Source: [Pseudopropionibacterium] massiliense (lineage in GTDB: Bacteria; Actinomycetota; Actinomycetes; Propionibacteriales; Propionibacteriaceae). From it: DNA of 64,000 nt. Positions 46,701 through 63,957 of the stretch are shown piece by piece (the stretch's first letter is position 1; the number at the start of each line of letters is the position of its first letter). The stretch is from the NCBI RefSeq assembly GCF_900607225.1, contig NZ_LR027842.1, positions 646,088 through 710,087 of the forward strand. Direction: 5' to 3'. Below the pieces are notes generated by a model. It was not told where the DNA came from and did not search any database. It worked only from the letters and a program-made list of their open reading frames with translations. Both the position numbers and the translations under genes were made by a program.

Positions 46701-49700
46701 CGGGCGACCCGCTTCCCGTCATCGCCTCGCGCCGCCGGGCATGCTCCTCGGCGGACTCCAGCGGTGCGGAAGCCAGGCTGCGATCGGGATCCTCGGCCAT
46801 CTCGACCAGGAGGCGGTCCAGGTGGCCGGCCATCGTGGCGATGGTGGCCCGGCGGAACAGTTCCGTCTGGTATTCGAGATCGATGCTGTAGTGGTCGGTG
46901 TGTTCCGCGATGCTGAAGGACAGGGGGTAGCGGCTGCGCAGTTCTCCCGGTGGCAGGGCCTCCAGCGTCAGCCCGTCGAGTTCGAGATCCTCGGTGCCCA
47001 TGTTGACGAAGCTGATCAACACGTCGAACAGCGGTTGGGCCTGTTCACCGACGTGTGTTCCGCTGGCCGCGAGTACCTGCTCGAAGGGGGCGTTCTGGTG
47101 GGAGAGGACCTCGGCCGCGTGGTCGCGTGCGTTTCGCACGGCGTTGCGCACGCTCTGGCCGGGTGTGTCCTTCATGCACAGCGGCAGGGTGTTGACGAAC
47201 ATCCCGACGGTGTTCTCGGCGCCTGCCAGCGTCCGGCCGGCCAGCGCGGTCCCCAGCAGGAATTCCGACTGGCCGCTGAACAGACTCAACACCCTGGTCA
47301 CCGCGGTCAGGAACACTGCATAGGGGGTGGCCCGGGAAACCGAGGCCAGACTGGCCAAGGAGTCCTTGCCCACGGCGCAGTTGATCGTCAGCCTGTCCCC
47401 GGAGAACGTGGGTTCTTCCGGAGGGGACTGGTCGTATGGCAGCTCGAGACGTGGCGGGGCCTCGGAGATCATGTCGGTGAAGAAGGCGACGTCCTTGGCG
47501 AAGGCGCCGGATGCCTCGAGTTCCGCCACGGCAGCCATGTACGTGGGATAGGGCAGCGGTTCAACGTCCAGCTCGCGACCCGCCCATGCCGCGGTGAGGT
47601 CCTTGCCGAGCACCGCCAACGAAGTCTGGTCGCCGACGATGTGATGCAGTTCGAGCCGCAGGTAGTGCTCGGTGTCGCTGACGGTCAGCACTTCCACGCG
47701 GAACAGCGACGCCCGGGTCAGGTCGAACGTCCTGGGCTCAGCGGCGAGCCGCCGCCTGGCCTCCTGCGCCGTCACACGTTCGTGTGTCACGACATCGGCG
47801 ACCTCGGTGTGGATGTGCATCATGAGGTCGGTTCCCTCCAGGTGGAAGGAAGCACGCAGCTGATCGTGGCGGCTCACCAGCGCCGCACAGGCCCGCCGGA
47901 GCCTGTCGATGTCGAGGTGCCCCGTGATCTTGTGGTCGATGGCCATGTTGTAGGCGGTCGTGTCGTTTCGCATCGAGCAGAGCGCATAGATTCTGCGTTG
48001 GGCGGCGGATGCGGGGAACAGCCCGTGCACCGCTTCGACGGCGAATTCCGGGGTGTCACTCCTCACGACCGATCCGGCCAGCCGGGCCCGCAGCGCACCG
48101 AAGGTCGGGGCGGCGAAGACGTCGCGAATGCTCAGGGCCTGACCTGTGGCCTCCTTGATCAGGGAACACAGGTGTACGGCGGTCAGGGAGTCGCCTCCGC
48201 TGGTGAGGAAGTCATCCGTCTCCTCCGGTACGGTGCCGATGACCTTGGCCCAGGCAGCTTTCAAGGCATCTCCTGCGTCCTGCGGCTCAGCCGGGCCGGT
48301 GGGGGTGAGTACTGTCGCGGGGGTGGCTCCTGTCCGTTCCGTGGCTCCCGGCATGTGGTCGAGGCGTACATCCGATGGGAGGTGCTGCGGGACGAAGGCA
48401 TAACCCGGAAGCGAAATCCTGCGACCCCCGGTGTGGAACCAGTTGCGATCGACATCGGCACCTCGAACCCAGAGGGATGCCAGCAGGGTGCGTAGAAGAT
48501 CTCCGGTGATCGGGCCGGTCACCGTGGTGCCATCCGCGGCGGGTGGCAGAGCGGGAACCGGGATGTCACGGGAACGAAGCCGGGACAGTGCCTGGGAGGA
48601 ATCAAGCATGCCGGTCGCGTGGGCGTGGGCCACACGCAGGAGCCGGTCCTGTCCGTGGCGGGCGGTCAGGCAATCAGGCCCCAGGGTGGACAGCAGCGCG
48701 GCACGCAGCACGAACTGGGCGATGCGATGGACGATCCCGTCCCCGGAGTGTCCTGTCAGCGCGTCCTGGACGGCGGCGCGGGCCTTCGCGTCGAATCGCG
48801 ACAACCACAGCTCGACCTGTTCCTGGTAGGCGTCGACGAGGGCGTCCTCTGTCTCTGTGCCGCGGTGGTCCGCGACCACGAGGTGGATGTCATCCGAGGC
48901 CTCACCGAGCACGGCGGGGGAGCCCGCATCCATCCACGTCAGTGGGGCTCCGGGAGAAACGAGAGCCGCTGCCCGGGAATCGAATTCGCTGCGGCCGGTC
49001 GCGAGTGTGTACGCAACGTCCCTGATGGGGGCCCCTGAGCCGATCGCGTCCACCAGATCGGACTGCATCCGGCGCCGGGACTCCTCCGTGCGGGCGGAGA
49101 CGCCGAGGATCACCGAGGAGGTCAGCGCGGTTTCCCCGTCATCGGTGGGTGGGGCCTGTTCCAGGATGATGTGTGCGTTGGTGCCTCCGATGCCGAAGGA
49201 ACTGACCGCTGCCTTGCGCACCGTGCCCGCCACGGCCTGGCCGACGGGGACGTACAGCTGTCCGGTGGGGTCGATGGCCCGGTTGAGTTCAGTGAAATTG
49301 GCCAGCGGCGGGATCTGCTGCTGGTGGAGGACACCGACAGCGCCCAGGAAGCCGGCCACGCCTGCGGCGGCATCGAGATGGCCGATGTTCGCTTTCACCG
49401 CTCCCAGTGCGCACGGCGAGGATTGGCCGTAGACGTGGGACAGGGCCGTGTACTCGATCGGATCTCCCAGGGCCGTTCCGGTTCCGTGGGTCTCCACGAA
49501 GTCCACCTCGTCCGCGCTGATCCCCGCGTCGGCGAGTGCGCTTCGGATCACTCGTTCCTGACCCTGCACGCCGGGCGCGGTGTAACCGACCTTGGCGTCA
49601 CCGTCATTGTTGATGGCTGAACCCGCGATGACGGCGTAGATGTGATCACCGTCGCTGAGCGCCCGGTCGAGCGGCTTGAGCAGTACCATGCCACAGCCCT

Positions 49701-52700
49701 GACCAGCCACGGTGCCTGAGGCGTCTGCGGAGAACGGACGACATGTGCCGTCGGGGCTGAGGATCATGCCGTCGTGCCACACGTACCCCTCGACGCGCGG
49801 GAAGTTCAGTGCCACCCCGCCGGCGAGTGCCATATCGGCCTCACCGCGACGCAGACACGAGACCGCTTCATGGATGGCCACCAGCGATGTGGAGCAGGCG
49901 GTCTGTACCGTGACCGCGGGACCCGTCAGGTCGAGTTTGTAGGCGACCTTGGTGGCCAGGAAGTCCTTTTCATTGCTGGTCATCGCCTCGAAGGCGGCCA
50001 TCGGCCCGGAATGTTGTTGCAGCAAACCGGTGAGCCAGGCGAAATTGGTTCCGCTGCCTGCGAACAGTGCGACGTCACCGTGGAGCCGTCGGGGGTCGTA
50101 GCCGGCATCCTCCAGCGTGTGCCAGGCGGTTTCGTGAAGTAGCCGGAGCTGTGGATCCATCGTCTCGGCGTCGCGTCGCGAATAGGAGAAGAAGTCGAAA
50201 TCGAAGGTGTCGGCCGCGATGTGGCCGCGGGCGGGAACATAGTCCGGATGATCGACGGTGGTCTGGTCGATGCCCGAGGCCAACAGCTCGTCCCGGGTGA
50301 AACGTCGGATGCTGACCACGCCGTTCGCGCGGTTGTTCCAGTGTTCCCTCACGGAGGGTGCGCCCGGGAAGGTTCCTGCGACCCCCACAACGGCGATGCG
50401 CCTGCTCACGGGCGGAGCGGATGTGTTGCGGTCCTCGAGGAACGTCGGGGCATCGGAGGTGTCCTGGTCCTCGACATCGCTCAGATCCTCCAGGGAGAAG
50501 GTCGGCTCCGTCCGTGGCCGTTCCGACGCCCCACCGTTACCGAGAATCGCTGCGAGCGTCCGCGGTGTGGGGTACTCGAACAACTGCACCAACGGGATCT
50601 CGCGGTCGAGAATCTCGTTGAGCCGGTTGTTGACCAGCATCAGTTTGAAGGAGCTGCCGCCGATGTCGAAGAAATTGTCGTCCGCGGTCACGCCGCGGCC
50701 GAGCACCTGGGTCCAGGCGCTCATGATGGCGTCCAGGACATCGGTTCCGGTGGGCGCTTTCGTCGCCGGGCGGGTGTCGGGGCGGAGGGTGCTGAGGGCC
50801 GAACGATCGATCTTGTTGTTGGGGAGACGGGGCATGTCGGATACCTGCTGGAAGTGCTGGGGGGTCATGTAGCGCGGGAGGGAGGTGGCGATCGCGGAAC
50901 GGATCGCGATCACGGGGTCTTCGGCGGACTCGTCGGTGGTGAAGTAGCACACGATGTCACCGTCCTCGACGAGCGCGATCGCGTAGGTGATCCCGGGGGC
51001 GCGCATGGCGGCCTGTTCGATCTCGCCGAGTTCGATGCGATTGCCGTTGACCTTGACCTGGTGGTCGGTACGGCCCTTCAACACGATCTCGCCGTCGGGC
51101 AGGGCAACGCCCATGTCCCCGGTTCGGTACACCGGGAGATCCGGGAGCTCCGGGAGCGTGGTGAAGGCATGTCGCGTCTCGTCCGGACGGTTCACGTAGC
51201 CGGCGGCGAGCCCCTGCCCGGCGACGCACAGCTCGCCGGGGACGCCGGCGGGTTGCGCCATACCGGTTTCTCCCACCACCAGGACGTGGGAGCCGAAAAT
51301 GGGCGAGCCGATCGTGACCGCGTCGCCGGGAGCGAGCTCCTTCACCGTGGTGGTGACGGTGGTCTCCGTCGGGCCGTACATGTTGAAGATCCGTGCATCG
51401 GCGTTGTCGTGCAGCAGCTCGGCCAGGTTCTCGGAGAAGTGCTCACCGCCACACACGATGACACGGAGGCGGGGGAGCTGGTCGCGGAACCGGCGGTTGC
51501 CGCACAACGCCGTCATCTTCGAGACGGGAACCTGGATGTGGGTCACCCGATGGGCGGCGATCCGCCGGGCGATGGCGGAGGCGTCCTTCTGGTCCTCGGA
51601 GGGGCACAGGTGGACGGTGGCGCCGGCTGCCAGGGGAATCAGGCTTTCGAAGGCGAAGATGTCGAAGGTGGGATCGGCCAGGCTGATGATGACGTCACCC
51701 GGTGCGAAGATGTTCCGTCGCAGGTGATCCTGGAACAGGTTCGCCAGTCCGCGATGTTTCACGGCTATGCCTTTCGGGCGTCCCGTGGAGCCGGAGGTGT
51801 AGACGACGTAGACGGGGCTGTCCGCCGATACCTCGGGGCCATTGAAGTGCTTCGTTCCTGCCTGGGTGCACGTGGCCAGATCGATCACGGTGGGGATTGT
51901 TGCGGTACTGGTGAACCCGGCCGGGGCGAGGGCCACGCGGGGCCGGGCGTCATCGAGGATGCTGGCGTGACGATCGACGGGCTGGGTGGGGTCCAGCGGA
52001 ACATAGGCCCCTCCGGCCTTGCAGATGGCGAGTTGCGCGATGAGCAGGGAAGCATCGCGCACCGTGACCAGGGCCACGGGATCGCCGGTTCTCACCCCTG
52101 CTTCCAGAAGACGGGTGGCCACGGCGTTGGCGTGGGCATCGAGCTGGGCGAAGCTGTAGGACCGGCCGGTGCCGTCGATCACGGCAGTGGCCCGGGGACG
52201 TTCAACGGCCTGCCGGGCCACCAGGTCGTGAATGGCTGTGAAGGGGGCGCCGATGATCCGGGACAACCAGGCGTCGTGATCGGCCCCGGTGTAGATGCTG
52301 ATGGTACCGATGGGTGCGGTGGAGTCAGCGCAGACGTGTTCCAGGAAGGCGTCGAGATGGTGTGCCAGACCCGTGATGGTGCTGGCGTCGAACAGGTCGG
52401 AGGAGTAGTCCAGCAGGAACTGGATGCCGTCGGCGGTCTCGGTTGCCGTGATGACCAGGTCCATACCCACTGCGAGGGGATCGGTTTCGATCTGCTGGCC
52501 TTTCAGGCCGCCGATGCGGAGCTGGTGGTGTTCCATGTTGTGGTAGTCGAAGGACACGTCGAACAGGGGGTGGCGTCCTGCCGTTCTCGGCTGGCCGAGT
52601 TTCTCCACGATCCGGTCGAAGGGCACGTCCTGGGCGGACAGGGCATCCAGCACGGTGGTGCGGGTGCCTGCCAGGTAGTCGTCGAAACTCGTGTCGGAAC

Positions 52701-55700
52701 GCGGTTTCAGACGAATGGGAAGCATGTTGACGAACATGCCGATCATTTCCCGGGTCTCGGTCAGTGTGCGCCCGCTGACCGGGGTGCCGATCACCAGGTC
52801 CTCGGTCCCGTTGTAGCGGGACAGAACTGCGCCCCAGGCCGCCAGCAGCACCATGGAGAGGGTGGCCTGACGGGCCTCGGCGAGTTCGGTCAGTTCCGCG
52901 GTTCGTTCGGAACTGAGCGTCCAGGCGACGCGACCCGCAGCGGATGCACGTTCTGCCCGGGGACGGTCGGGAGGGAGCACGTCTGCGGTGGGCGGATCGG
53001 TCAGCTGTGTGAGCAGGGCGTTCTCCGCCTCCGCGAGATTCTCATCCTGTCCCGCGGCTCGAACGTGGTGGACGTAGTCGGTGTACTGGTGGGTCAGTGG
53101 TGCCAGTTCCATGTCGTACAACTCGCCGAAGTCGCGTGCGAGGATTTCTGCCGAGGTGGCATCACCGATGATGTGGTGAAGGTCGAACAGCAGCAGACTC
53201 GTGTCCGTGTCCTCGACGATCTCCATGCGGAACAGGGGACCCGTCTCAAGGTTGAACGGGCGGACGAACCGGGCCAGGTGCTCCCCGGCCGATTCGGGGG
53301 TGGCGTGGCCGTGGATGAAGTTCAGTGGAAGATCGTTCCGATCGATGCGGGTCAGGCCTTGGCGGATCTCGCCGTCCCGTGTCGTGAACGTGGTGCGCAG
53401 CGGCTCGTGGCGTTCCACCAGCCGTGCCAGCGCGGAACGCAACCGGTCGCGATCCAGGAGGCCGTTCAGCCAAGTGGCCGATGCCATGTTGTAGGTGAGG
53501 GATCCCGGGTCGAGCCGGGCGGCCAGGTACATGCGTTCCTGTGCGGGGCTGAGGGGATGATCGGCCGCCTCGGGTGCCTTGGCCATGTGGGTGACGGCGG
53601 TTTCCGTGAGAAGACGTGCCTCGAGGGCCGCCGGGGTGGGGGCAGCGAACACGTCTGCCACGGTGGCGTCCACGCCGAGCAGGGCCTTGAGCTGGGCTGT
53701 CAGACCGGTTGCCTTGAGGGAATCGCCGCCGAGGGTGAAGAAGTTGTCGTCGGCCGACACGTCGGCGTGGCCCAACACCTGACGGAAGGCATCCCGGAAC
53801 GCGTCGAGTCGGGTGGCGTGGACGGGCTTCGGTGTTTCCCGGACCGGCGCGGCGACGGGCGTGGCGGTGACGGAACCACCGGGAACGGGGTGTGGATGGG
53901 CGTCAAAGCTGTATCCGGGCAGCGACCTGCGACGGCCGGTGTCGTGCTCGGACCAGTCCAGGGGCAGACCCGCGATCCACAGGTCGCCCAGCGCAGCCAG
54001 CAGATGGGCCTCGTCGGCCACGTCGGTGGCAGCATGACGCAGCAGACCCACCACCTGCTGATCGGCGCCACCGACGTGGGTGACGAAGGTGGCCAGGCTG
54101 TTGCCCGGGCCGGTTTCGATCCCCAGCAGCGGCCCGTCGGCCAGCAGCGTGGTGAGGCCGTCGGTGAAGCGCACCGTACCCGTGATGTGGTCGCCCCAGT
54201 AGCCGGGATCGGTCATGTCACCGGGACGCACGAGCTGTCCGGAACGGTTCGAGATGATCGGGAGCCGGGGGTCCCGTGAGGTCACCTTCGCCACCGCAGC
54301 GGTGAAAGCGGTGGCCGCAGCATCCATCATCGGGGTGTGGAAGGCCTGGGACGTGTGCAGCCGGGTGCCGATGATGTCCGCGGCGTCCAGCTTCGCCAGC
54401 ACGGGGTCAACGGCGTGTGGCGCCATGCCGACAACGGAACGTTCGGGCGAGTTGTCGAGACAGACCCAGACGTCCGGTGTTCCGGCGATCACCTCGGCGA
54501 CACGTGCCGCAGGGGCAAGCGTGGCAATCATGATCCCGGGAGGTTGGGACTGCATGAGAAGGCCGCGTTCGCGTACCAGGAGGGCCGCGTCCTCCGGGCT
54601 CCACACCCCGGCCAGGGCGGCTGCGGTCAGTTCGCCGACGCTGTGCCCGAGGAGAACATCGGGGACGATCCCGAAGGATTCGAGGACCTTCGCCAGCGCG
54701 AACTGGGTACTGAACAGAGCGAACTGCGACCATTCGGTGCGATGGATACGGCCGTCATCGGAGCCCGCATAGAGCACGTCGCGGAAGTCGCGGGCATCGT
54801 CCCGGGGCAGCATGTCGATCAGATCGTCCATCCAGCCACGGAACATCTCCCCGATGGAGCTGTCACTGGTGTAGAGACCGTGGCCCATCCGGTGGTACTG
54901 GTTGCCCTGACCGGAGAGGAGAAGGGCGAGCCGGGGCCGTGACGCTCCGGCGGGCAGTTCACCGTGACGCAGACGTTCGATCCACGCATCGGTGTCGCGG
55001 GGCTCATCAGGGGAGACCACCAAGGTGCCGCGGTAGGGCAGTTCGGCGCGCGAACGAAGGGTGACGGCGGCGTCGGCAAGTTTCACCGAATCGTCAGCTG
55101 CCACGTGGTCCACGATGCGTTCGGCCGTACGGATCATGGCCTCCCGGCTGGCCCCGGAGAACTGGAGCAACGCGTGTGGCTGGTCGTCCGTCTCCGGGAG
55201 GACGGGTGCCTCGTCGAGAATCATGTGCACGTTCGTGCCTCCTACTCCGAAGGAATTGATGCCTGCACGGATCTGGTCGCCATCCAGGGAACGGTTCGTC
55301 GACGACACCTCGAAGGGTGTGGCCCCGAAGTCGATGTGAGGGTTGGGGCGGGAGAAGTTGAGGGTGCCCGGGAACAACCGGTGCTTGAGGCTGAGCGCCA
55401 CCTTGCTCAGCCCGACAGCACCTGCGGCGGAGTCCGTGTGCCCGATGTTGCCCTTGACCGAGCCGAGCAGGCAGCTCCCCGGCGGTGCTGTCGAGAAGGC
55501 CCGTGCCAACGAGGCCACCTCGATGGGGTCACCCAGCAGCGTCCCGGTCCCGTGGGCCTCGACGAAACTCACCGTGGCGGGATCGATGCCCGCAGTGCGG
55601 TAGGCGGCGGAGATGGTTTCGTACTGCCCGTCCTCGCTGGGGGCGGTGTAGGACTGTTTGCGCCGGCCGTCATTGCCGCTCGCAGACCCCTTGATGACGG

Positions 55701-58700
55701 CGTAGACGGGGTCGCCGTCGCGTCGAGCGCTCGTCAACGGTTTGAGCACCAGAAGGGCGGCGCCGTTGGAGAACACCGTGCCGCTTGCGTCGGCGTCGAA
55801 CGGTCGGCAGTGGCCGTCGCGCGACAGCATCATCCCGTCACTCCACTGGTAGCCACCTCCGTTGGGCAGTTCCACGGTGACGCCACCGGCCACGGCCAGT
55901 TCGCACTCCCCGGACCGCAGCGCCTGAACCGCCAGGTGAACCGTCAGCAGCGACGAGGAGCAGCCGGACAGGGCGGACAGCGAGGGGCCGGTGAGGTCGA
56001 AGTGGTAGGACAACCGGGTGCTGAGGAAATGGTTGGTGGCCAGGGTGAAGTTCTGATATGCATCCCCGAACGATGTGGGATTCATGAGGGTGCGTCGATA
56101 CCATTCGAAATCGTCGCTGCCCGCCGCGAAGACCCCCACTCGGCCCGGCAGTTTTCGGGGATCGTAACCGGCGTCCTCGCAGGCCAACCAGAAACACTTG
56201 TACAGCAGACGCAGTTGGGGGGACGTGACGTCCACCTCCGCCGGCGCGATCTGGAACAGACGGTCGTCGAACTCGTCGATTCCCTCGACGCGGCCGGAGG
56301 CCTTGACGTAGGTGGGATCGCGCAGCTGGTTCTCGGACACTCCGAGGCGACGCAGTTCGTCGTCGTCATGGAAGGTGATGGTTTCCTCACCGGCGACCAG
56401 AAGATTCCAGAAATCGTGCACGTCCTCGGCCTTCTGCACCTGCACACCGATCCCGATGATGGCGATGTCGTCGCCGAGGGGCTGGGTGGTCTCGGTGGAT
56501 TCTTCGGGAGAATCTCCCCGGGGCTTCAGCAGCTCGGTCTGGGTCGCGATGGTGGGGTGGCTGAGCAGGTCGGTGATGCCGATCTGGGTCCCGAAGGTTT
56601 CCTGGAGTCGTAGTTGCAACCGCATCAGGCTCAGTGACGTGCCTCCGGCCTCGAAGAACGTGCGGTGGTGGTCGGTGACGGGGCGTCCGAGCACGTCCTG
56701 CCACAGGTCCGCGAGCCGGGCGGCAACCGTGGTGGTGACGGAAGCATCTGTGTGGTCATTCTGCTGATCGAGCAGTGTGCGCAGGGCGGCGCGATCCAGC
56801 TTCCCGGCGGCGGATGTCGGCAGGGCATCGACCTGCATGAGCACCGATGGGATGAACTGGGAGATCAGCACCTTGCCCAGGGAAGCGCGAATCCGGTCCG
56901 CCGGGATTGGGGATTCGGACGCGTAGAAGCCTGCGAGTCGCGGTTCCGCCGCCGAATCATCGACCAGGACCGCGGCCTCGACGACCCCGTCGATGCGATG
57001 CAGGGCCTGCTCGATCTCGCCGAGCTCCACGCGGAGACCCCCGACCTTGACCTGGCGGTCGATGCGGCGCGAGAACGCGAAACGACCGTCGGGACGCAGG
57101 AAACCCAGATCGCCGGTGCGGTACATGCGTCGCATGTGCTCGGGATCGATGTCAGCGTCGAAGAAGGGATTGTCCACGAATTGCCGGGCAGTGAGTTCCT
57201 CGCGGTTCAGGTAACCCACACCGACACCCGCCCCTGCGATGCAGACCTCACCGGGCAGGTCGGTGCCGCACGGCTCGCCCCGGCGATTCAGGACGTAGAT
57301 CCGATAATCGTTCAGGGGGGTGCCGATGGGAACGTTCGCCACCGAGTCCTCGGGGTGGATACGCGTGTGGGTGGCCCACATCGTGGCCTCGGTGGGGCCG
57401 TAGACGTTTTCCAGGGTGCACGGGAGTCCCAGGGCGTGGAAACGTTCGATGATGTCCGGGGTCAGTGCTTCTCCGCCAGAGAACAGATGGGTCAGGCCAT
57501 CGAGATCGTGACGCCGACCGGTGCTCTCGATGGTCGCGAGCAGGACGCGCAGCATGGTGGGGGACGAATTCAGGTGGGTCACGCCGTAGGTGCGGACAGC
57601 CCTTGCCAAGGCCTGGGGGTCACCCTCCTGGCCGACGGGGAGAATGGCCAGACGCCCGTCACCGACGAGCCAGCCATAGAGCTCGGTTCCGAAGATGTCG
57701 AAGGTGAACGAGGTCTTGAGCAGGAACACGTCGTCGCGTCCCAGGGGGAATCGTCGTTCCAGGTCCAGCGCCGTGTTCTGAACGTTCGCATGTGTGATCG
57801 CCACGCCCTTGGGGCGGCCGGTGGAACCGGATGTGTACTCGATGTAGAGCAGGTCCTCGGGTGCCCTGTCGACGGGGGCCGGGATTTCGGCGATGGTGTC
57901 GCGGTGATCGCCGGTCAGTGCGACGATGTCGTCACAGGTGTCCAGGTCGAGTCGCGTCACATGGTCCGGAAGCTCCAGGTCCAGGTCCGAGAAGGTGATG
58001 ACGGCTGCCGCATCGGCGTCGCTCAGCATGTCCAGGATGCGAGCGGCAGGCATGTGCTCGGACAGGGGAACGTACGGATGTCCAGACAACACCGTTCCCA
58101 GTACGGCCGCGAGCAGGGTTGCCCCGCGCGGCAGAAGCACGGCGACAGGACGCTTGTCCGAGCCGATGGCATCGAGGACGTGACGCTGTACCAGTACGGC
58201 CGCGTCATGGGCCCAGGCATTCGTGTACCCACGGGTCTCGTCGAGCCACGTCTCGCGTGCCGGATCGGCACTCGTGCGGTCGAGGAAGAGGGTCCCCAGA
58301 TCGGTCGGGTCCCAGTCGAAGTAGTGGGTTTCGCGTGAGGCGGCCAGCAGGTCGCTGCGTTCGGACGCGGACATGGGCTGCAGCTCCGTCACGGGCGCGT
58401 CGAGGTGTGTGGGGATCTGCCGGACCAGGGCCAGGAAGCGTTCGGCGAACCGTGTCGCACGCTCGGTGGTGAGCGCGGATTCCTTGTACCAGATCACGAT
58501 GTCGGTGTTGCTGCCGAGCTGTTCGATGGTCACGGTGAGCCGGCCGGGGAAGTGAACCTCGCCGGGATGTGTGGCCGCGAGGACGCCCTCGGGTAGCTCG
58601 GGGTAGGCGTCGTGGATGAAGGTGATGTCGAACAGGCCTGCGCTCGACAGCCCCGACAGTTTGCGGGCGACCGGGAAGTCGAGGTTTCGCCACAGGCCCA

Positions 58701-59625
58701 TCACCTCGGAACGCGTACGCTTCAGCAGGTCGCGGACCCTCAGACCGGGTGAGACATCAACCAGTACCGGGAGTGTTCGGATGAAACAACCAATGCTGTT
58801 CTCCATCTCCAGGTGAGGGCGATCCATGAAGGGACTTGCGAAGGAGACCTGGTCCTCACCGGCGTAGTGTGCGAGCAGTGTCCCGAAGGCCGCCAGATAC
58901 ACGGTGAACTCGGAAACCTCGGCCTCCTGCGCGGTTTCGCGGACGGCTTCGGCGGTGTCGTGGGGCACGGTCAGGCGGAACTCCCGGGCCGCATCCTCGT
59001 GTGGGGAGGCAAGCAACCAGTGATCGAGTTGCGGGACCCGGTGGCGGGGTAGGTTCTCGGACCAGAAACTCTCGCGCCGGGCCAGTGCCTCGGGCGATGG
59101 GTGGCTGAGCTGACCGTTCTGATAGGTGAACAGCCCTTGGTCGGTGTGTGATGCGGTGATCTCCCGGGTTCCCCGGGCCATGTCGATGATGCGGTCGGTG
59201 AGGATGCTCACCGACCGTCCGTCGGCGATGAGGTGGTGGCACACGACCAGCAGACGGTCTCCGTCGGACAGACGAGCTGCCACCACTCGGAACAGGGGGG
59301 CGGTGTTCAGCTGGAAAGGTGTGTTCCGGGCCGTGTGGAAGATCTTGTCCAGCTTCTCCTCCGCACCTGTCAGGTCGTGGTGACGCACAGGTGCCTCGAC
59401 CGATTCGGCGATCATGTACACGGGCCCGGATTCGTTTCTGGTCACTGACGCGCGCAATGCCGGTTGCTCCGCCATGACTGCGCTGACCGCCTGGGTCAGA
59501 CGTGAACGGGAAAGATGCTCCGTGCGCAGCTCAATCGCGATGTGGTAGTCGGCGGACTGCCGAAGCTGGCTGTCGAAATACATGCCTTGCTGGGCAGGGG
59601 ACATGGGAAGGGTGGGTTCGGTCAT
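43699..59625 (-). CDS. Hybrid NRPS-PKS megasynthase, 5308 aa
   Basis: Domains by residue: C1 1-440 (HHLIADG at 130), A1 445-960 (YTSGSTGRPKGV near 598), T1 (GGTSL at 993), KS1 1045-1470 (GCSSS, Cys 1222; EAHGTGT; KGNIGH), AT1 1570-1870 (GHSVG, Ser 1662; AFHT, malonyl-like), T2 (GGDSL, 1968), C2 2020-2450 (HHIIGDA at 2150), A2 2460-2940 (TSGSTG near 2609), T3 (GGSSF, 2989), KS2 3060-3480 (TACSTS, Cys 3244), an AT remnant without GHSxG 3500-3700, T4 (GGDSL, 3811), C3 3860-4290 (HHIVGDQ at 3993), A3 4310-4790 (TSGTTG near 4454), T5 (GVQSIQ, 4848), C4 4900-5308 (HHSIFDG at 5061). No epimerase, methyltransferase, ketoreductase or thioesterase is present. An N-terminal C domain suggests acylation of the first residue; the terminal C domain suggests transfer to an external amine or alcohol, or cyclisation. 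Three amino acids and up to two ketide units are expected. Product unknown. Confidence 0.93.
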   Translation of the reverse strand: MTEPTLPMSPAQQGMYFDSQLRQSADYHIAIELRTEHLSRSRLTQAVSAVMAEQPALRASVTRNESGPVYMIAESVEAPVRHHDLTGAEEKLDKIFHTARNTPFQLNTAPLFRVVAARLSDGDRLLVVCHHLIADGRSVSILTDRIIDMARGTREITASHTDQGLFTYQNGQLSHPSPEALARRESFWSENLPRHRVPQLDHWLLASPHEDAAREFRLTVPHDTAEAVRETAQEAEVSEFTVYLAAFGTLLAHYAGEDQVSFASPFMDRPHLEMENSIGCFIRTLPVLVDVSPGLRVRDLLKRTRSEVMGLWRNLDFPVARKLSGLSSAGLFDITFIHDAYPELPEGVLAATHPGEVHFPGRLTVTIEQLGSNTDIVIWYKESALTTERATRFAERFLALVRQIPTHLDAPVTELQPMSASERSDLLAASRETHYFDWDPTDLGTLFLDRTSADPARETWLDETRGYTNAWAHDAAVLVQRHVLDAIGSDKRPVAVLLPRGATLLAAVLGTVLSGHPYVPLSEHMPAARILDMLSDADAAAVITFSDLDLELPDHVTRLDLDTCDDIVALTGDHRDTIAEIPAPVDRAPEDLLYIEYTSGSTGRPKGVAITHANVQNTALDLERRFPLGRDDVFLLKTSFTFDIFGTELYGWLVGDGRLAILPVGQEGDPQALARAVRTYGVTHLNSSPTMLRVLLATIESTGRRHDLDGLTHLFSGGEALTPDIIERFHALGLPCTLENVYGPTEATMWATHTRIHPEDSVANVPIGTPLNDYRIYVLNRRGEPCGTDLPGEVCIAGAGVGVGYLNREELTARQFVDNPFFDADIDPEHMRRMYRTGDLGFLRPDGRFAFSRRIDRQVKVGGLRVELGEIEQALHRIDGVVEAAVLVDDSAAEPRLAGFYASESPIPADRIRASLGKVLISQFIPSVLMQVDALPTSAAGKLDRAALRTLLDQQNDHTDASVTTTVAARLADLWQDVLGRPVTDHHRTFFEAGGTSLSLMRLQLRLQETFGTQIGITDLLSHPTIATQTELLKPRGDSPEESTETTQPLGDDIAIIGIGVQVQKAEDVHDFWNLLVAGEETITFHDDDELRRLGVSENQLRDPTYVKASGRVEGIDEFDDRLFQIAPAEVDVTSPQLRLLYKCFWLACEDAGYDPRKLPGRVGVFAAGSDDFEWYRRTLMNPTSFGDAYQNFTLATNHFLSTRLSYHFDLTGPSLSALSGCSSSLLTVHLAVQALRSGECELAVAGGVTVELPNGGGYQWSDGMMLSRDGHCRPFDADASGTVFSNGAALLVLKPLTSARRDGDPVYAVIKGSASGNDGRRKQSYTAPSEDGQYETISAAYRTAGIDPATVSFVEAHGTGTLLGDPIEVASLARAFSTAPPGSCLLGSVKGNIGHTDSAAGAVGLSKVALSLKHRLFPGTLNFSRPNPHIDFGATPFEVSSTNRSLDGDQIRAGINSFGVGGTNVHMILDEAPVLPETDDQPHALLQFSGASREAMIRTAERIVDHVAADDSVKLADAAVTLRSRAELPYRGTLVVSPDEPRDTDAWIERLRHGELPAGASRPRLALLLSGQGNQYHRMGHGLYTSDSSIGEMFRGWMDDLIDMLPRDDARDFRDVLYAGSDDGRIHRTEWSQFALFSTQFALAKVLESFGIVPDVLLGHSVGELTAAALAGVWSPEDAALLVRERGLLMQSQPPGIMIATLAPAARVAEVIAGTPDVWVCLDNSPERSVVGMAPHAVDPVLAKLDAADIIGTRLHTSQAFHTPMMDAAATAFTAAVAKVTSRDPRLPIISNRSGQLVRPGDMTDPGYWGDHITGTVRFTDGLTTLLADGPLLGIETGPGNSLATFVTHVGGADQQVVGLLRHAATDVADEAHLLAALGDLWIAGLPLDWSEHDTGRRRSLPGYSFDAHPHPVPGGSVTATPVAAPVRETPKPVHATRLDAFRDAFRQVLGHADVSADDNFFTLGGDSLKATGLTAQLKALLGVDATVADVFAAPTPAALEARLLTETAVTHMAKAPEAADHPLSPAQERMYLAARLDPGSLTYNMASATWLNGLLDRDRLRSALARLVERHEPLRTTFTTRDGEIRQGLTRIDRNDLPLNFIHGHATPESAGEHLARFVRPFNLETGPLFRMEIVEDTDTSLLLFDLHHIIGDATSAEILARDFGELYDMELAPLTHQYTDYVHHVRAAGQDENLAEAENALLTQLTDPPTADVLPPDRPRAERASAAGRVAWTLSSERTAELTELAEARQATLSMVLLAAWGAVLSRYNGTEDLVIGTPVSGRTLTETREMIGMFVNMLPIRLKPRSDTSFDDYLAGTRTTVLDALSAQDVPFDRIVEKLGQPRTAGRHPLFDVSFDYHNMEHHQLRIGGLKGQQIETDPLAVGMDLVITATETADGIQFLLDYSSDLFDASTITGLAHHLDAFLEHVCADSTAPIGTISIYTGADHDAWLSRIIGAPFTAIHDLVARQAVERPRATAVIDGTGRSYSFAQLDAHANAVATRLLEAGVRTGDPVALVTVRDASLLIAQLAICKAGGAYVPLDPTQPVDRHASILDDARPRVALAPAGFTSTATIPTVIDLATCTQAGTKHFNGPEVSADSPVYVVYTSGSTGRPKGIAVKHRGLANLFQDHLRRNIFAPGDVIISLADPTFDIFAFESLIPLAAGATVHLCPSEDQKDASAIARRIAAHRVTHIQVPVSKMTALCGNRRFRDQLPRLRVIVCGGEHFSENLAELLHDNADARIFNMYGPTETTVTTTVKELAPGDAVTIGSPIFGSHVLVVGETGMAQPAGVPGELCVAGQGLAAGYVNRPDETRHAFTTLPELPDLPVYRTGDMGVALPDGEIVLKGRTDHQVKVNGNRIELGEIEQAAMRAPGITYAIALVEDGDIVCYFTTDESAEDPVIAIRSAIATSLPRYMTPQHFQQVSDMPRLPNNKIDRSALSTLRPDTRPATKAPTGTDVLDAIMSAWTQVLGRGVTADDNFFDIGGSSFKLMLVNNRLNEILDREIPLVQLFEYPTPRTLAAILGNGGASERPRTEPTFSLEDLSDVEDQDTSDAPTFLEDRNTSAPPVSRRIAVVGVAGTFPGAPSVREHWNNRANGVVSIRRFTRDELLASGIDQTTVDHPDYVPARGHIAADTFDFDFFSYSRRDAETMDPQLRLLHETAWHTLEDAGYDPRRLHGDVALFAGSGTNFAWLTGLLQQHSGPMAAFEAMTSNEKDFLATKVAYKLDLTGPAVTVQTACSTSLVAIHEAVSCLRRGEADMALAGGVALNFPRVEGYVWHDGMILSPDGTCRPFSADASGTVAGQGCGMVLLKPLDRALSDGDHIYAVIAGSAINNDGDAKVGYTAPGVQGQERVIRSALADAGISADEVDFVETHGTGTALGDPIEYTALSHVYGQSSPCALGAVKANIGHLDAAAGVAGFLGAVGVLHQQQIPPLANFTELNRAIDPTGQLYVPVGQAVAGTVRKAAVSSFGIGGTNAHIILEQAPPTDDGETALTSSVILGVSARTEESRRRMQSDLVDAIGSGAPIRDVAYTLATGRSEFDSRAAALVSPGAPLTWMDAGSPAVLGEASDDIHLVVADHRGTETEDALVDAYQEQVELWLSRFDAKARAAVQDALTGHSGDGIVHRIAQFVLRAALLSTLGPDCLTARHGQDRLLRVAHAHATGMLDSSQALSRLRSRDIPVPALPPAADGTTVTGPITGDLLRTLLASLWVRGADVDRNWFHTGGRRISLPGYAFVPQHLPSDVRLDHMPGATERTGATPATVLTPTGPAEPQDAGDALKAAWAKVIGTVPEETDDFLTSGGDSLTAVHLCSLIKEATGQALSIRDVFAAPTFGALRARLAGSVVRSDTPEFAVEAVHGLFPASAAQRRIYALCSMRNDTTAYNMAIDHKITGHLDIDRLRRACAALVSRHDQLRASFHLEGTDLMMHIHTEVADVVTHERVTAQEARRRLAAEPRTFDLTRASLFRVEVLTVSDTEHYLRLELHHIVGDQTSLAVLGKDLTAAWAGRELDVEPLPYPTYMAAVAELEASGAFAKDVAFFTDMISEAPPRLELPYDQSPPEEPTFSGDRLTINCAVGKDSLASLASVSRATPYAVFLTAVTRVLSLFSGQSEFLLGTALAGRTLAGAENTVGMFVNTLPLCMKDTPGQSVRNAVRNARDHAAEVLSHQNAPFEQVLAASGTHVGEQAQPLFDVLISFVNMGTEDLELDGLTLEALPPGELRSRYPLSFSIAEHTDHYSIDLEYQTELFRRATIATMAGHLDRLLVEMAEDPDRSLASAPLESAEEHARRREAMTGSGSPVTTALDTPLRTSFARHAKLPALRWEGEEWTYAEVDEITDALAGGLQREGIEPGTVVGTIIDRGPWQVWSRLALAKCGAVELPLDPGAPAKRINQTLSDARARAVLCSDPRSHILPEDVTAYRPDLLSGHFQQPGGLIPDSPLIMIYTSGTTGRPKGVLVTHGGVLSACADTGYMHYGPGDRVLHLTSYTFDPSMFDVYSALLSGATIVMGGHEHNMDMHLLADLLTSEKVTKGLLITAVFHLLMAENPEAVANMSALFVGGEAMQPWAAQRAYDVMGPGRLFNLYGPTESSIVSTFFRMDERPEFTRMPIGFPTNNRELFILHPDGTDVPRGVPGELCIAGAGLALGYHQRPELTDEKFPECPACPGKRIYRTGDRVVLDDEYRVVYLDRVDRQVKHAGYRIELSEIEIVAQAHPGVVEAVIVHTSTGENDSRLLGFYTGDADPSDLRAHLLASLPSYMVPQQLRRVAGFPLTGHGKVDRHRLLALCDTIPEATGQPATTTEPSPDVATEAVSQDILAMARATFGMPELSATANFFALGVQSIQAIALTRKLRETGIEAQVSDIYRYPSVAQLTQALRASDSSPSPTVPVAPAESTRRLTQQHLDRLATDIVMDASDLAEAFACDAPSYRFDAGVLSHLHASRASTGGFVHTIGDTDAVTLLEALADIVADHEMLRARSTGDGFDVISAETVADLPVLIRVHDLSRIPADQVIDITSAVARDLTSAPFGSGLLWRCAIILEPENSARLIWAFHHSIFDGFSAQLLHDELQHRVLGDEVPPAQRYSAFLTDLAVDHDWEDELRRFDYSRWLASSESVTRALRTSGPLPRRLSVPLNGENPLDLGLRSVHSQLAELSNESEIAVGMVSDCRQWQDTNYSSCVGEFLDAVPVMLNGENDQPAITARLADAKNQGLHYLHALFTTTRRDEELLEQLRSTYRGDDGKLGFILVNFQGRIDPADLPSEDVAGPTLATAQVNLWYDDDALHVQWITDSAQLVVGGAA

Positions 59626-60286
59626 GGGAGAAAGGCTCCTAAAACGGCGTCTGCGACATTCAATGACTAAATCGCTGGGTGTGTGTTTGATCGAAGGATG
59701 AGGTATGGCGCTGTGACCAGACCGAGGAAACCATCAAACAATTTGTATTGTGATCGATTTTCAGGTGCGGCAATTACGGATGAGGCGTTGCCTGACAACT
59801 TCTCGAGCGTGTGAAGGCTTCCGTCGCCAGATATACGGTCGAGAGGGGAGTGTTCCTGTCCGATCGACTTCTGAACGGCAAATTTTTTCTTTTCCTGTCG
59901 AGGAGTTGATCCGGCAGGAGAGTGGGTGTCACTCGGGTTTGCGCATGACTCGCTCGAGGTGTGTCGGGTTGTCTTCCGGGTTCATTTGAATTTGTATTTC
60001 TTGACCATGAGATTACGGAGCTGTCCGAGCGGCGTCAAAGCAAATACCCCGAAAGTTGACGGCCTCATGTGTGATGGTGAGGAGCGCATGCGGCGGGCGG
60101 GTGGGGCATCTCGGGGACGAGCCGGTGGTTGATGGTGCGCGAGGTCGTGGTGGAACAGGGCGTGAAGCAGGGTGGTAGGGGTGGCTCCCCGGGGGAGTGA
60201 TCGTGTCCTGGGCGGTTACCTGACGCGGATGGTCAGACGTTTCGCCCGGTTCCGCTCGACAGGGGAAGAGAAATTGAAAATGCGAT
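59626..60286. other. Intergenic control region upstream of the megasynthase gene
   Basis: No convincing gene; the short frames here have no ribosome sites or recognisable products. On the minus strand AGGAG (about 59637-59641) precedes the megasynthase ATG. An inverted pair TGTTTGAT (59684-59691) and ATCAAACA (59733-59740), 41 bases apart, lies 59-115 bases upstream of the ATG. The AT-rich patches at 59736-59762 and 59880-59895 are unusual for this genome and mark the likely promoter zone. Confidence 0.5.
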
Positions 60287-60512
60287 CATTGAGGCTTGTT
60301 CGCAGCCCCGCCGAAGCTGGTTGAGTCGGACCGCGACGAAGGAGCGGTCCACATCGAAACCCCGCTAGAGCCCGCCGCAATTTCCGGGACACGGCTGCCA
60401 GGGGTTTCGAGGCGGCCGGCTCAACCGGCCTCCACTCTTCGAGATCTTGGCCACAGGCCCTCGCCAGAGGATTGCGCTGGCCTGTTCCCCCGCCTGTGAA
60501 CAAGCCCCATTG
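60287..60512. mobile_element. 226-bp MITE-like element carrying a REP unit
   Basis: The left end CATTGAGGCTTGTTCGCAG (60287-) and the complement of the right end, CAATGGGGCTTGTTCACAG (ending 60512), match at 16 of 19 positions. A REP-like half-unit (60313-60361; GAAGCTGGTTGAGTCGG...ATCGAAACC) is nested inside. No open frame. Related to the elements at 61721 and 21354. Confidence 0.6.
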
Positions 60513-60570
60513 CCCGGCTCGGGTTTCTGTGCAGAGGACCGCGTCGAGTGGCTCTTCTCGTGTGCTCGGC

Positions 60571-61698
60571 CTATCCGTTGGTTCCGGTGGTCAGGGGTAC
60601 CCTGACCTCGGCATGCCACTGATGTCCCTTGGGGGTGAAGGAATATGCGCCGTTCAACAGATTGACCCTTTCCTTGACGCCGAGCAGCCCGTGGCCTCCG
60701 TTGCTCTTCGCCGGAGCTGCGGTGCCGATGTCGTTGACCACCCTCAGCATGACGCAACCGTCGTCTTCCCGGGCTTCGATGGTGCACGTTCCCGGAGCCC
60801 CGTGCCACACGACGTTGGCGACGAGCTCCCCCAAAATCTTGGACATGCCGTATTCGAGGTCGGGGGAGAGCTTGTCGCCGGGGATGTCGACATGAGTTTC
60901 TGTATTGAATCCGTTGTCCCGAAGGGCGCTCAATGCCTGGGTCAGCTGCGTATCGAGGGAGTGGTTCGATTGCTGTCCGAAAGAACTGAAGTCCTGATCG
61001 ACGTTTCGAAGAGCCACCATGGCGGCGCGTAGCTCGGTCGCCGCGCGGCGTGACAACTCGAGCGCATCGAGAAGATCGGGAGACAGTTCCCCTGGGAGAC
61101 GTGGATCCTCCGCGAGGTCCTCGAGGCTCATCACCACCAAGGTCTGGGTTTGGGCGACGCTGTCGTGGAGCTCACTCGCCACGAGGAGGCGGGTCGATCG
61201 CAGGGCCTCCTCGCTTTCCCGGTGAGCCCTTTCCTCGGTCTCGTGCCTCTTATGAGCGATCGCTCCGGTGGCGCCGCCGAACAGGGTGATTCCGGTGAAG
61301 AAGATGAGATTGATCAGAGTGTCGTTCCACGAATCGCGAATCTCCCAGGTGATCAGTAATAACAAGGGGTAGATGATGGCCAGTGCCCAGCGACCGGTGC
61401 GGCGATTTTTGAACCAGTTGTATACGAAAGCTCCTCCGCACAGATTCATGGATACCCCGGGGATATTGAATGTGCTCCACAGGCCGAAGTAGCACATTGC
61501 TAGTGCAAGGGCTGGTAATGGTTGCCAAGGAAGTAGGAAAGAGGCTGCGAGCATCACCAGTGCAACTCCTGTGGAAGTCGGCTCCGGTGTGCCCTGTGGC
61601 GTACCCAGGGTCATTGCAAATAGCGCAACGCCGATCACCGGCTCCACGGGCAGTTGCTTGATGAGGGAGAGGACCAGGCGGGCGCGTCGCAACTTCAC
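60571..61698 (-). CDS. NarL-type sensor histidine kinase with multi-pass membrane domain
   Basis: 375 residues from the GTG at 61698. Residues 14-150 hold five to six hydrophobic segments (VIGVALFAMTLG, GVALVMLAASFLLPW, LALAMCYFGLWSTF, ALAIIYPLLLLITWEI, LINLIFFTGITLFGGATG), with short loops and no large outer domain. The HisKA_3 helix is LRSTRLLVASELHDSVAQTQ (phospho-acceptor His about 180), and the ATPase end has GELVANVVWHG and NGGHGLLGVKERVNLLNG. This compact polytopic sensor is the kind that detects peptides or membrane ligands. Partner: the regulator at 62385. It lies between the cluster and the peptide gene. Confidence 0.88.
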   Translation of the reverse strand: MKLRRARLVLSLIKQLPVEPVIGVALFAMTLGTPQGTPEPTSTGVALVMLAASFLLPWQPLPALALAMCYFGLWSTFNIPGVSMNLCGGAFVYNWFKNRRTGRWALAIIYPLLLLITWEIRDSWNDTLINLIFFTGITLFGGATGAIAHKRHETEERAHRESEEALRSTRLLVASELHDSVAQTQTLVVMSLEDLAEDPRLPGELSPDLLDALELSRRAATELRAAMVALRNVDQDFSSFGQQSNHSLDTQLTQALSALRDNGFNTETHVDIPGDKLSPDLEYGMSKILGELVANVVWHGAPGTCTIEAREDDGCVMLRVVNDIGTAAPAKSNGGHGLLGVKERVNLLNGAYSFTPKGHQWHAEVRVPLTTGTNG

Positions 61699-61720
61699 CC
61701 GTTAAATGATACAGCTGTGC

Positions 61721-61993
61721 CATTGAGGCTTATTCGTGGGTAGGGTACCCGCCGGCACATTCCTCTGGCCGGGGGTTCAGGTGAGGGCGTGTGGTCAAGT
61801 TTTCGAGGAACGAAAGCTGGTTGAGCCGGCCTGGTTGCTCTGCGGACTGGCTGTGTCGAAACCCCCGGCGACCGTTTTCAGGGAATTGCAGCGGCCTCTG
61901 TTGTGCGGCTGCCGGGTGGTTTCGAGGTTGATCGCTCCTTCGTCGCGGTCCGGCTCAACCAGTTTCGGGGAGGCTGTGGATCACGCCTCATTG
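61721..61993. mobile_element. 273-bp MITE-like element carrying REP units
   Basis: Left end CATTGAGGCTTATTCGTGGG (61721-61740); the complement of the right end is CAATGAGGCGTGATCCACAG (ending 61993). Two REP half-units lie inside in opposite orientation (61813-61863 and 61918-61970). It sits exactly between the histidine kinase gene and the small peptide gene, ending 3 bases before the peptide stop codon. Confidence 0.55.
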
Positions 61994-61996
61994 ACT

Positions 61997-62173
61997 TCAG
62001 CAGTAACCCCTCCAGATGTGGCAGAGGAAATTGGATGCGGGGGTGGTGCTGGTTGGAGGAACGGTCTTGGAGACAGTGGTGCTGGGCGCCGCGCTGGCCT
62101 CGGTCGGGAGGGTGAGCAGGGGGGTGGCGAGGGTGAACATGGCTGCGAGGGTGATCGTGATCTTGTGCTTCAT
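61997..62173 (-). CDS. Secreted small peptide precursor ending CHIWRGYC (putative pheromone)
   Basis: 58 codons from ATG 62173 to TGA 61997-61999, shorter than usual gene-finder cut-offs. Residues 1-28 form a signal peptide: basic MKHK, a hydrophobic core (ITITLAAMFTLATPLLTL) and a cleavage site after EASA. A Ser/Thr/Pro-rich spacer (APSTTVSKTVPPTSTTPAS) leads to NFLCHIWRGYC, where two cysteines bracket six residues at the extreme C-terminus, allowing a small disulfide ring. It is encoded upstream of the kinase gene on the same strand and divergent from the response regulator. A weak AGTAGAG site precedes the ATG. An autoinducing peptide is the best guess; an antimicrobial or structural peptide is possible. 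Confidence 0.65.
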   Translation of the reverse strand: MKHKITITLAAMFTLATPLLTLPTEASAAPSTTVSKTVPPTSTTPASNFLCHIWRGYC

Positions 62174-62235
62174 GGTATGCTCTACTTTGAACAGGGATAA
62201 AGATTAAATTTCAGTAAGCAGTCCCCGATATGGAG

Positions 62236-62297
62236 AAGGGAAGATCCCTTTTCGCTATCGATTCGGTGTGGGCTGTTTTCGTTGATCCCAATCAAAC
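62236..62297. promoter_or_regulatory. Operator-like inverted repeats in the peptide/regulator intergenic region
   Basis: AAGGGA-AGA-TCCCTT (62236-62250) and TTGAT-CCCA-ATCAA (62282-62295) are perfect inverted repeats between the divergent peptide and regulator genes. The word ATCAAAC (62291-62297) also occurs, in both orientations, upstream of the megasynthase gene. These are candidate response-regulator sites. 62174-62384 has no other gene. Confidence 0.4.
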
Positions 62298-62384
62298 CTG
62301 TCCCGCCGCATCGAGGCACGCGTACGTCAACTTTGGGAGATCGACGCAGCAGACGGTCTGGGTCGAACGGCTAGATTGTGTGAC

Positions 62385-63035
62385 ATGAACGAAGCCGAGA
62401 TCCGTGTTCTGATCGCTGAGGACCACGACCAGGTGCGTGCCCGCATCCAACGCATAGTGGATGCCATGCCCGGGATCCTCGTGGTCGGGGCGGCCCCGAA
62501 CGGGCTGACGGCCGTTTCCACCGCCAAACGCATCGACCCCGATGTGATCCTGATGGACATCAGCATGCCGGTGCTCGACGGCATCCAGGCCACCCGGCAG
62601 ATCGTTGATCTGGGGCTCCGGGCGCGCGTCATCGCGCTCACATCGTTGGAGGACGATTACACCTTCCACGACGCGCTGCGTGCAGGGGTTGCCGGGTTCC
62701 TGCTCAAGACCAGCTCCCGCGGCGAGATCATGCACGCCATCCAGCAGGTTCACCTCGGTGAGTCCATGCTCTCACCCAGCCTCATCACTCGGGTTCTGAC
62801 CAACTATGAACGCGGGCACCGTCCCTCGAAAGCCATCATTGAACTGCCCGAGAAGGACCGGGACCTGCTCCGTCTGATCGCGCAGGGCCTGAGCAATCTC
62901 GAAATCGCGGAGAAACTCTCGCTCTCGCCCGCGACGGTGAAGAGCTACGTCTCCAGGCTGTTGACCAAGCTGGGTGCCCGCGACCGAGCCCAGCTCGTGA
63001 TCCTGGCCTACCAGAACGGCCTCGTGGAAAGCTGA
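62385..63035 (+). CDS. NarL/LuxR-type response regulator
   Basis: 216 residues from ATG 62385. Receiver domain 1-120: VLIAEDHDQVRARIQ (acidic pair), VILMDISMPVLDG (phospho-Asp), ALTSLEDD (Thr/Ser) and FLLKTSSRGEI (Lys). The C-terminal LuxR helix-turn-helix is DRDLLRLIAQGLSNLEIAEK followed by LSLSPATVKSYVSRLLTKLG. Cognate of the kinase at 60571 by type and position. There is no clear Shine-Dalgarno site, and TAGATT (62372-62377) sits 7 bases before the ATG, so the mRNA may be leaderless. Likely targets are its own region and the NRPS-PKS operon. Confidence 0.9.
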   Translation: MNEAEIRVLIAEDHDQVRARIQRIVDAMPGILVVGAAPNGLTAVSTAKRIDPDVILMDISMPVLDGIQATRQIVDLGLRARVIALTSLEDDYTFHDALRAGVAGFLLKTSSRGEIMHAIQQVHLGESMLSPSLITRVLTNYERGHRPSKAIIELPEKDRDLLRLIAQGLSNLEIAEKLSLSPATVKSYVSRLLTKLGARDRAQLVILAYQNGLVES

Positions 63036-63068
63036 CGAAATCCCGGACGGAAGCGTCCCGGAACGACG

Positions 63069-63860: not shown

Positions 63861-63957
63861 GTTTCCACTGTGACCGTGCACCATCCGTTGCACAACCCCG
63901 GGGTCCTCATCCGACGGAGGCGATAGGCTCGCTGCGACCCTGAATGAAGGAGCCCAG

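Follow-up and report, generated by a model that had tools for sequence, protein, structure and literature searches.

We analyzed a window of 64,000 nt from the 3.48-Mb genome of [Pseudopropionibacterium] massiliense (GCF_900607225.1, NZ_LR027842.1, forward strand 646,088-710,087), which belongs to the same genus group as genomes G034 and G023. Near one end of this window, a minus-strand open reading frame (ORF) encodes a peptide of 58 aa (MKHKITITLAAMFTLATPLLTLPTEASAAPSTTVSKTVPPTSTTPASNFLCHIWRGYC), located between the gene of a HisKA_3 histidine kinase downstream and that of a LuxR-type response regulator in divergent orientation (Table 1). A first-pass annotation had proposed that this ORF is a secreted peptide forming a signaling circuit with the two proteins and controlling the adjacent gene cluster for a nonribosomal peptide synthetase-polyketide synthase (NRPS-PKS). 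The signal peptide and the Cys-x6-Cys tail on which the proposal relied are both readable in the sequence: the precursor ends in NFLCHIWRGYC, with Cys51 and Cys58. The regulator, composed of Response_reg and GerE domains, also lies as had been described. The kinase (375 aa) is indeed downstream of the peptide, with a HisKA_3 domain above and a HATPase_c domain below the curated cut-offs. That it is polytopic, as had been stated, is likely, although a crude hydropathy cut-off returned one strong membrane segment, compared to three to six in five relatives of similar length. The megasynthase, with Condensation, AMP-binding, carrier, KS and AT domains, is encoded further downstream on the kinase strand, and is followed by KS, aminotransferase, thioesterase, MFS and FtsX/ABC genes.

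The window peptide belongs to a family of 31 ORFs with a signal peptide and a C-terminal Cys pair, which we detected in 26 genomes from five genus groups of Propionibacteriaceae. In 30 of them, a HisKA_3 kinase gene on the same strand lies directly downstream; the exception (G205) is located after the regulator. Peptide and kinase genes overlap by 33 bp at one extreme, if the longest kinase start is taken, and are 299 bp apart at the other; the distance is within 70 bp in 25 of the 30 cases. On the other side, 23 of the 31 peptides have a divergent LuxR-type regulator, whose mechanically called ORF overlaps the peptide three times (G002, G023 and the second system of the window genome); the regulator is on the same strand in four cases, and in another four none was seen in the sequence stretch examined. 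Signal peptide, C-terminal Cys pair and position directly upstream of a HisKA_3 kinase gene, which define the new family, are all present in the window peptide. The expectation of the first-pass annotation that Cys-tail ORFs occur beside homologous kinases thus holds on a large scale. A strictly conserved Cys-x6-Cys, which had also been expected, is ruled out, since the loops vary from 4 to 11 residues and one peptide (G005b) has three cysteines, the outer pair giving a loop of 5. Typical tails are LCHIWRGYC, LCHIFPQFC, LCLIFPC, FCPIFPWLPMC, LCTIYPNWC, MCYFFPRIC and FCDWIPVKPFC. An A-x-A motif occurs at residues 17-38 in 28 of the 31 members (all except G004b, G017b and G005a), and a GGAG-like ribosome site, defined by a loose pattern, is found in 20. 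Uncorrected ratios of nonsynonymous to synonymous differences (pN/pS) ranged from 0.05 to 0.72 in 17 of 18 peptide pairs and reached 0.91 in the pair formed by the window and G003, where the tail is replaced. Because the same kind of peptide recurs beside the same type of kinase in 26 genomes, and pN/pS stays low in almost all pairs, we judge the ORF to be more than a chance occurrence. These comparisons of sequences confirm the 58-codon gene as genuine, and a spurious ORF was rejected on the grounds of conservation and pN/pS.

Table 1. Features of the window, followed by two entries from the G037 locus (L108).
Feature	Position	Strand	Basis
NRPS-PKS megasynthase, 5308 aa, presumed main target	43699..59625	-	ORF list, domain scan
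Putative megasynthase promoter TTGACG, 17 nt, TAATCT; 10 nt after the box	60010..60038	-	Spacing in relatives
Candidate regulator box GTCAACTTTCGG, upstream of megasynthase	60049..60060	-	Genome scan
Interspersed repeat copy, 3' side of kinase gene, inverted relative to the other copy	60303..60489		Repeat search
HisKA_3 histidine kinase, predicted receptor; residues ~1-140 form the variable sensor region	60571..61698	-	Domain scan, DNA alignment, tree
Interspersed repeat copy between peptide and kinase	61743..61976		Repeat search
Peptide precursor: signal peptide, Ser/Thr/Pro spacer, C-terminal loop LC-HIWRGY-C	61997..62173	-	Sequence, family alignments, pN/pS
Candidate regulator box GTCAACTTTGGG, regulator promoter	62326..62337	+	Shared-motif comparison, genome scan
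Putative -10 TAGATT of regulator promoter, 7 nt before ATG	62372..62377	+	Comparison with relatives
LuxR-type (GerE) response regulator, divergent from peptide gene	62385..63035; alternative TTG start 62376	+	ORF list, domain scan
Type-A lantibiotic precursor (PF04604), G037	L108 11647-11802	-	Beside Cys-loop peptide and kinase
LanM-like enzyme and C39-ABC transporter, G037	L108 8432-11224 and 6321-8639	both -	Beside Cys-loop peptide and kinase

When compared to 146 relatives, the window peptide had a single strong match besides itself, in G003 and restricted to residues 1-35, and a weak match in G017 (E 0.0085) that afterwards proved to be a family member. Kinase homologs were catalogued in 39 genus members and their surroundings were then read. 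An alignment of eight peptides (A1), searched in 198 genomes of the family, returned full-length matches to short frames in G009, G034, G022, G160, G051 and G205, all six adjoining a kinase and a regulator, as do two weaker picks (G084 and G146). A 16-row alignment (A3) was searched in 245 genomes of the order: among the matches listed with E <= 1e-5, 14 lay outside the query rows and 13 of these are beside a kinase and a regulator (G156, G159, G155, G073, G158, G023, G041, G065, G021, G030, G003, G004 and a second locus of the window genome), the exception being a 473-aa frame in G116. Weaker A3 picks comprised a member in G162 and a non-member, G023:C104 (L181); kinase and regulator were present at 14 of the 15 places read after this search, and neither was alongside at G023:C104. 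As for the chance level, reversed sequences gave 8 hits per 415 kb with a loose version of the scan. A spread of the family beyond Propionibacteriaceae was also considered. No convincing member was found among the matches listed in the order (245 genomes) and class (394 genomes), many of which were weak, and none of the ten loci inspected outside the family had a kinase or regulator within about 3 kb; these searches scored at most 16-32 candidates per genome and most other weak matches were not followed, which makes this absence weak.

The family is apparently undescribed so far. The window peptide matched no Pfam family at E <= 1, and its NCBIfam matches scored 12-13 bits, where at least 29 would be required. 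Across 13 members scanned, the best E values, 0.0008 in NCBIfam (WGxxGxxG family, two members) and 0.0026 in Pfam (lipoprotein attachment site, one member), were judged unconvincing. No published description was found in titles and abstract openings, with preprints and subscription papers outside the search.

To what extent is the peptide maintained where the kinase itself is conserved? Orthologs of the window kinase occur in six other genomes, with two copies in G003 (77% and 90% identical) and identities of 42-49% in G017, G034, G004, G005 and G023. Between the kinase and the regulator of G017 lies a peptide ending in GNWLCVFRWRC. A peptide ending in AHWLCEVFRLQCPRK lies upstream of the G005 kinase, near a contig end where the regulator was not seen, and a second G005 kinase also has a peptide (FWNCRCFRICF). 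The signal-peptide ORF of G003 ends in SSFIPGLRGR, without Cys; that of G004 has no Cys either and is separated from the kinase by a transposase gene. In G034 and G023, no peptide was found between kinase and regulator. The first-pass annotation had named a lack of conservation of the ORF or its terminal cysteines in such relatives as evidence against its proposal, and this applies in part because four of the seven orthologous loci lack an intact Cys-pair ORF: the pair is present in three (window, G017 and G005), the ORF is Cys-less in two (G003 and G004), and none was found in two (G034 and G023). These absences, and the lack of a GGAG-type ribosome site in the 16 nt 5' of the window ATG, are what would be expected if the ORF were spurious or decayed and the two-component system sensed something else. 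However, reading frame, signal peptide, Cys pair and position are conserved across five genus groups, which makes this explanation highly improbable.

The two kinase genes of G003 lie in tandem. Their mutual DNA identity is about 64% over the first 420 alignment columns, corresponding to the sensor, and then 97-100% past the stop codon. Relative to the window, sensor identity is 56% for kinase 1 and 89% for kinase 2, and each kinase domain is 91% identical. The Cys-less peptide precedes kinase 1; its promoter and signal-peptide DNA are close to those of the window, with similarity ending right behind the signal peptide. A peptide remnant, located behind broken pieces of a transposase, precedes kinase 2. 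Its alignment with the window DNA extends into the start of the kinase, its final codons encode DIWRGYC, and the stop codon has been altered. A given type of tail therefore travels with a given type of sensor. We interpret this arrangement, seen in one genome, as a specificity swap in which mature peptide and sensor are replaced and promoter, signal peptide and kinase domain are common. Such a pattern would be expected for pheromone-receptor pairs that change specificity.

This cassette-like swap of the mature part and the sensor, which resembles pherotype switching, bears also on a different role for the peptide. MgrB is a small regulator of a kinase, and the peptides might likewise stay with the producer cell and regulate the neighboring kinase through a signal anchor and a Cys pair on the outside, with no intercellular signal. 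The tight pairing of each peptide with one kinase, the Cys pair outside the membrane and the missing A-x-A motif in three of the 31 members would all agree with such a role. Since the other 28 members have the motif and a spacer ahead of the loop, and given the swap, we consider it unlikely.

The association between peptide and kinase is selective. The window genome encodes 18 HisKA_3 kinases, and three of them have a Cys-pair peptide: the window locus, C1:1884.8 kb (GCIIWWLFKTTTWCKR) and C1:3213.4 kb (DLCGYFLYLFCR). No peptide was detected by the Cys-tail scan beside the other 15, some of which have unrelated short hydrophobic ORFs nearby, nor was a Cys-tail peptide found in the next-nearest kinase group (L068, L069, L070, L073, L074, L075 and L292). 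We built a tree of 57 kinases with a quick method and labeled the kinases of the 31 Cys-pair systems, of the Cys-less G003 and G004 loci and of the peptide remnant. The label changes 6 times along the tree, compared to a mean of 18.2 after shuffling, and none of 500 shuffles was as low, a contrast that is inflated by near-copies. Six groups with starred support contain the peptide-linked kinases, and one of them also includes the peptide-less kinases of G034 and G023, whereas 13 peptide-less kinases of the window genome fall into a single group; the tree does not imply that the six groups have independent origins. In one group (L071, L105, L106, L107 and L167-L172), the peptide-linked kinases are about 745-780 aa long owing to a long N-terminal part, in which no Pfam domain was found in the two scanned.

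The window kinase gene is flanked by an interspersed repeat, whose two copies are inverted relative to each other. The gap between peptide and kinase, which at 299 bp is wider than for any other of the 30 peptides upstream of a kinase, is largely filled by one of these copies. Among the matches listed for a 200-bp repeat query, in a search that initially scored up to 40 candidates per genome, at least 41 are in the window genome, at least 33 in G003, two in G004 and none in G034.

To relate the system to a target, we compared the regulator-peptide region with the kinase-megasynthase region and found a candidate regulator box, GTCAACTTTsGG. Three exact copies exist in the 3.48-Mb genome, one in each of these two regions and an apparently unrelated one at C1:2999738. 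The layout after the kinase (box, 10 nt, TTGAC, 17 nt, TA...) recurs in G003, G017, G034 and G005, where the G034 copy precedes an MFS gene and the G005 box has two mismatches. The regulator promoter of G003 has an exact box, whereas those of G017 and G034 have a box with one mismatch and that of G004 has a box with two. The putative -10 element of this promoter is TAGATT also in G003, G017 and G034, and TAGACT in G004, with a similar position in these genomes. Because the putative -10 lies only 7 nt before the ATG, the sequence suggests that the regulator transcript is leaderless or near-leaderless.

The first 700 aa of the megasynthase were searched in six relatives. A full counterpart is present only in G017, as a 5283-aa frame directly after the peptide and kinase, 68% identical over 1424 aa. 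G003 and G005 retain only about 320 aa, within a 532-aa and a 589-aa frame, respectively, where the Condensation domain is truncated; this looks like the outcome of losing the bulk of the megasynthase. In both genomes (L061 8780-10378 in G003 and L065 1895-3643 in G005) this domain is fused to a membrane-protein-like stretch after the kinase. In G004, G023 and G034, the search found nothing beyond distantly related NRPSs at other loci, with 25-34% identity. In these seven genomes, the intact megasynthase hence accompanies the intact Cys-pair peptide in the window and G017, and no counterpart exists in the peptide-less G034 and G023. The shared promoter box and the G017 locus, which keeps peptide, kinase and megasynthase together, support the proposal of the first-pass annotation that the circuit would control the cluster.

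Other systems have different neighbors. Three systems of another kinase group (G017, G004 and G037) adjoin LanM-like and C39-ABC genes. Like type II lanthipeptide precursors, the peptides of these loci are small, contain Ser, Thr and Cys and lie near LanM-like genes; unlike them, they have an N-terminal signal peptide and no LanA leader, and the family is kinase-adjacent even in loci with no nearby LanM. Because G037 has its own LanA (PF04604) adjoining LanM, the Cys-loop peptide there is a separate product, and a lanthipeptide precursor was ruled out. No LanM or LanC-type enzyme was found among the window genes scanned, which cover part of the window. The proximity to lanthipeptide genes in these three systems, together with the short hydrophobic tails and their Cys pair, might alternatively indicate that the peptides are secreted bacteriocins, sensed by the kinase-regulator pair just for their own production or immunity. 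The separate precursor in G037 argues against this, as does the fact that kinase and regulator are the constant neighbors, whereas immunity and export genes were not constant in the loci read, where no systematic search for them was made; we regard a bacteriocin role as quite improbable. The third system of the window genome adjoins a PALP gene and an ornithine cyclodeaminase gene (L287 2-1069 and 1017-2111, ornithine cyclodeaminase/mu-crystallin), a pair that we take to be SbnA/SbnB-like.

Starting from four sequence facts, namely the family, its kinase linkage, the G003 specificity swap and the promoter sites, we propose with a probability of about 0.77 that the window ORF is a secreted peptide pheromone, that the adjacent kinase is its receptor, and that the circuit controls the NRPS-PKS cluster. 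The precursor would leave the cell by the Sec route, with signal peptidase cleaving it near TEASA|AP. The product, either a mature peptide of about 29 aa or a C-terminal piece shorter than that, would close into a loop through a disulfide between the terminal cysteines. The membrane sensor region of the HisKA_3 kinase would then sense this loop, which is supported because tail and sensor change together in G003 and signal peptide and kinase domain are constant. The LuxR-type regulator, once phosphorylated, would bind the conserved GTCAACTTTsGG at two places, beside the NRPS-PKS -35 element and within the promoter of its own gene, and sufficient peptide would switch the cluster on. Specificity would change through replacement of the cassette of mature peptide and sensor. 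The idea of a pheromone circuit put forward by the first-pass annotation is thus backed by Cys-tail peptides beside kinases in 26 genomes.

Several observations weigh against this proposal. Expression, secretion, cleavage, disulfide formation, binding and regulation are predictions from sequence. The tails of G003a and G004a have no Cys, G034 and G023 keep kinase and regulator with no peptide between them, and the picked candidate G023:C104 has no adjoining kinase. The sensor is less conserved than the kinase domain in 91 of 93 pairs, a trend that is weak on its own because it is common among sensor kinases. The box was discovered by comparing the very regions that it is said to link; with one mismatch it is not enriched genome-wide (12 sites versus 17 for a reversed control pattern), and allowing two mismatches within the window likewise gives no enrichment (6 observed versus 8.09 expected). 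Since the motif was picked from these regions and its relaxed versions are not enriched, its weight rests on conservation and spacing. The G023 regulator promoter has no box within two mismatches, and two copies near the kinase end lack the layout. Finally, the putative promoter of the megasynthase is about 385 nt upstream of where the gene is annotated to start.

Known systems offer partial parallels. ComX-ComP-ComA (comQXPA) of Bacillus controls the srfA surfactin NRPS, and its mature peptide and sensor change quickly next to a kinase that stays constant; ComX has a prenylated Trp and no Sec signal. The window system is similar in its predicted secreted peptide, membrane HisKA_3 kinase, LuxR/GerE regulator and probable NRPS control, as well as in the variation of mature peptide and sensor around a constant kinase. 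It differs in its Actinomycetota host and in the precursor, which has a Sec-type signal peptide, a Cys pair and no Pfam match. The scanned neighbors of the window peptide are the kinase, the regulator, a carbon-nitrogen hydrolase and the megasynthase, and no ComQ-like isoprenyl-transferase gene was recognized among the ORFs of 58000-64000, the rest of the genome not having been searched. The cyclic AgrD peptides of agr also have a C-terminal ring built around Cys, signal to an adjacent kinase and form pherotype groups. Unlike agr, the window system has a GerE rather than LytTR regulator, a HisKA_3 kinase, two cysteines instead of a thiolactone, a Sec-type signal peptide and no convincing peptide-family match. 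The Rap-Phr receptor is located inside the cell, and in contrast to such RRNPP systems the window peptide neighbors a kinase and a response regulator, with no cytoplasmic TPR receptor alongside. As described in PMC5199041, Rap-Phr specificity diverges via intralocus duplication of the phr gene; the tandem module of G003, with its old peptide broken, looks similar in kind, but there phr is duplicated, whereas here the candidate receptor is a membrane kinase that is duplicated too. GSP, a bacteriocin-inducing peptide, was set aside as a precedent for the disulfide, the words 'disulfide' and 'cysteine' being absent from the main text of PMC8545107. The window system would work like ComX-ComP-ComA and agr, yet it lacks tested features of both, and we therefore report it as a variant of peptide-pheromone two-component signaling.

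On balance, we favor a broader interpretation, held less firmly than that of the window locus, in which these peptides represent a new pheromone class: Sec-exported, disulfide-looped peptides read by HisKA_3/LuxR systems and linked to six groups of kinases throughout Propionibacteriaceae. One cell would have as many as three such channels in parallel, pherotypes would switch by cassette replacement, and the processes controlled would be NRPS-PKS and, elsewhere, lantibiotic production. Peptide quorum sensing is well known in Bacillota. In Actinomycetota it is little documented: in a 2016 review (PMC4748050), quorum sensing is reported in 25 of 342 genera, nine with experimental evidence, and the table row for Propionibacterium gives AI-2 as autoinducer. 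The predicted ligands are short, chemically simple and come with paired receptors, which makes the family directly testable. If the proposal is true, it would provide a handle for switching on silent clusters in these actinobacteria, and would open pherotype switching to study outside Bacillota.

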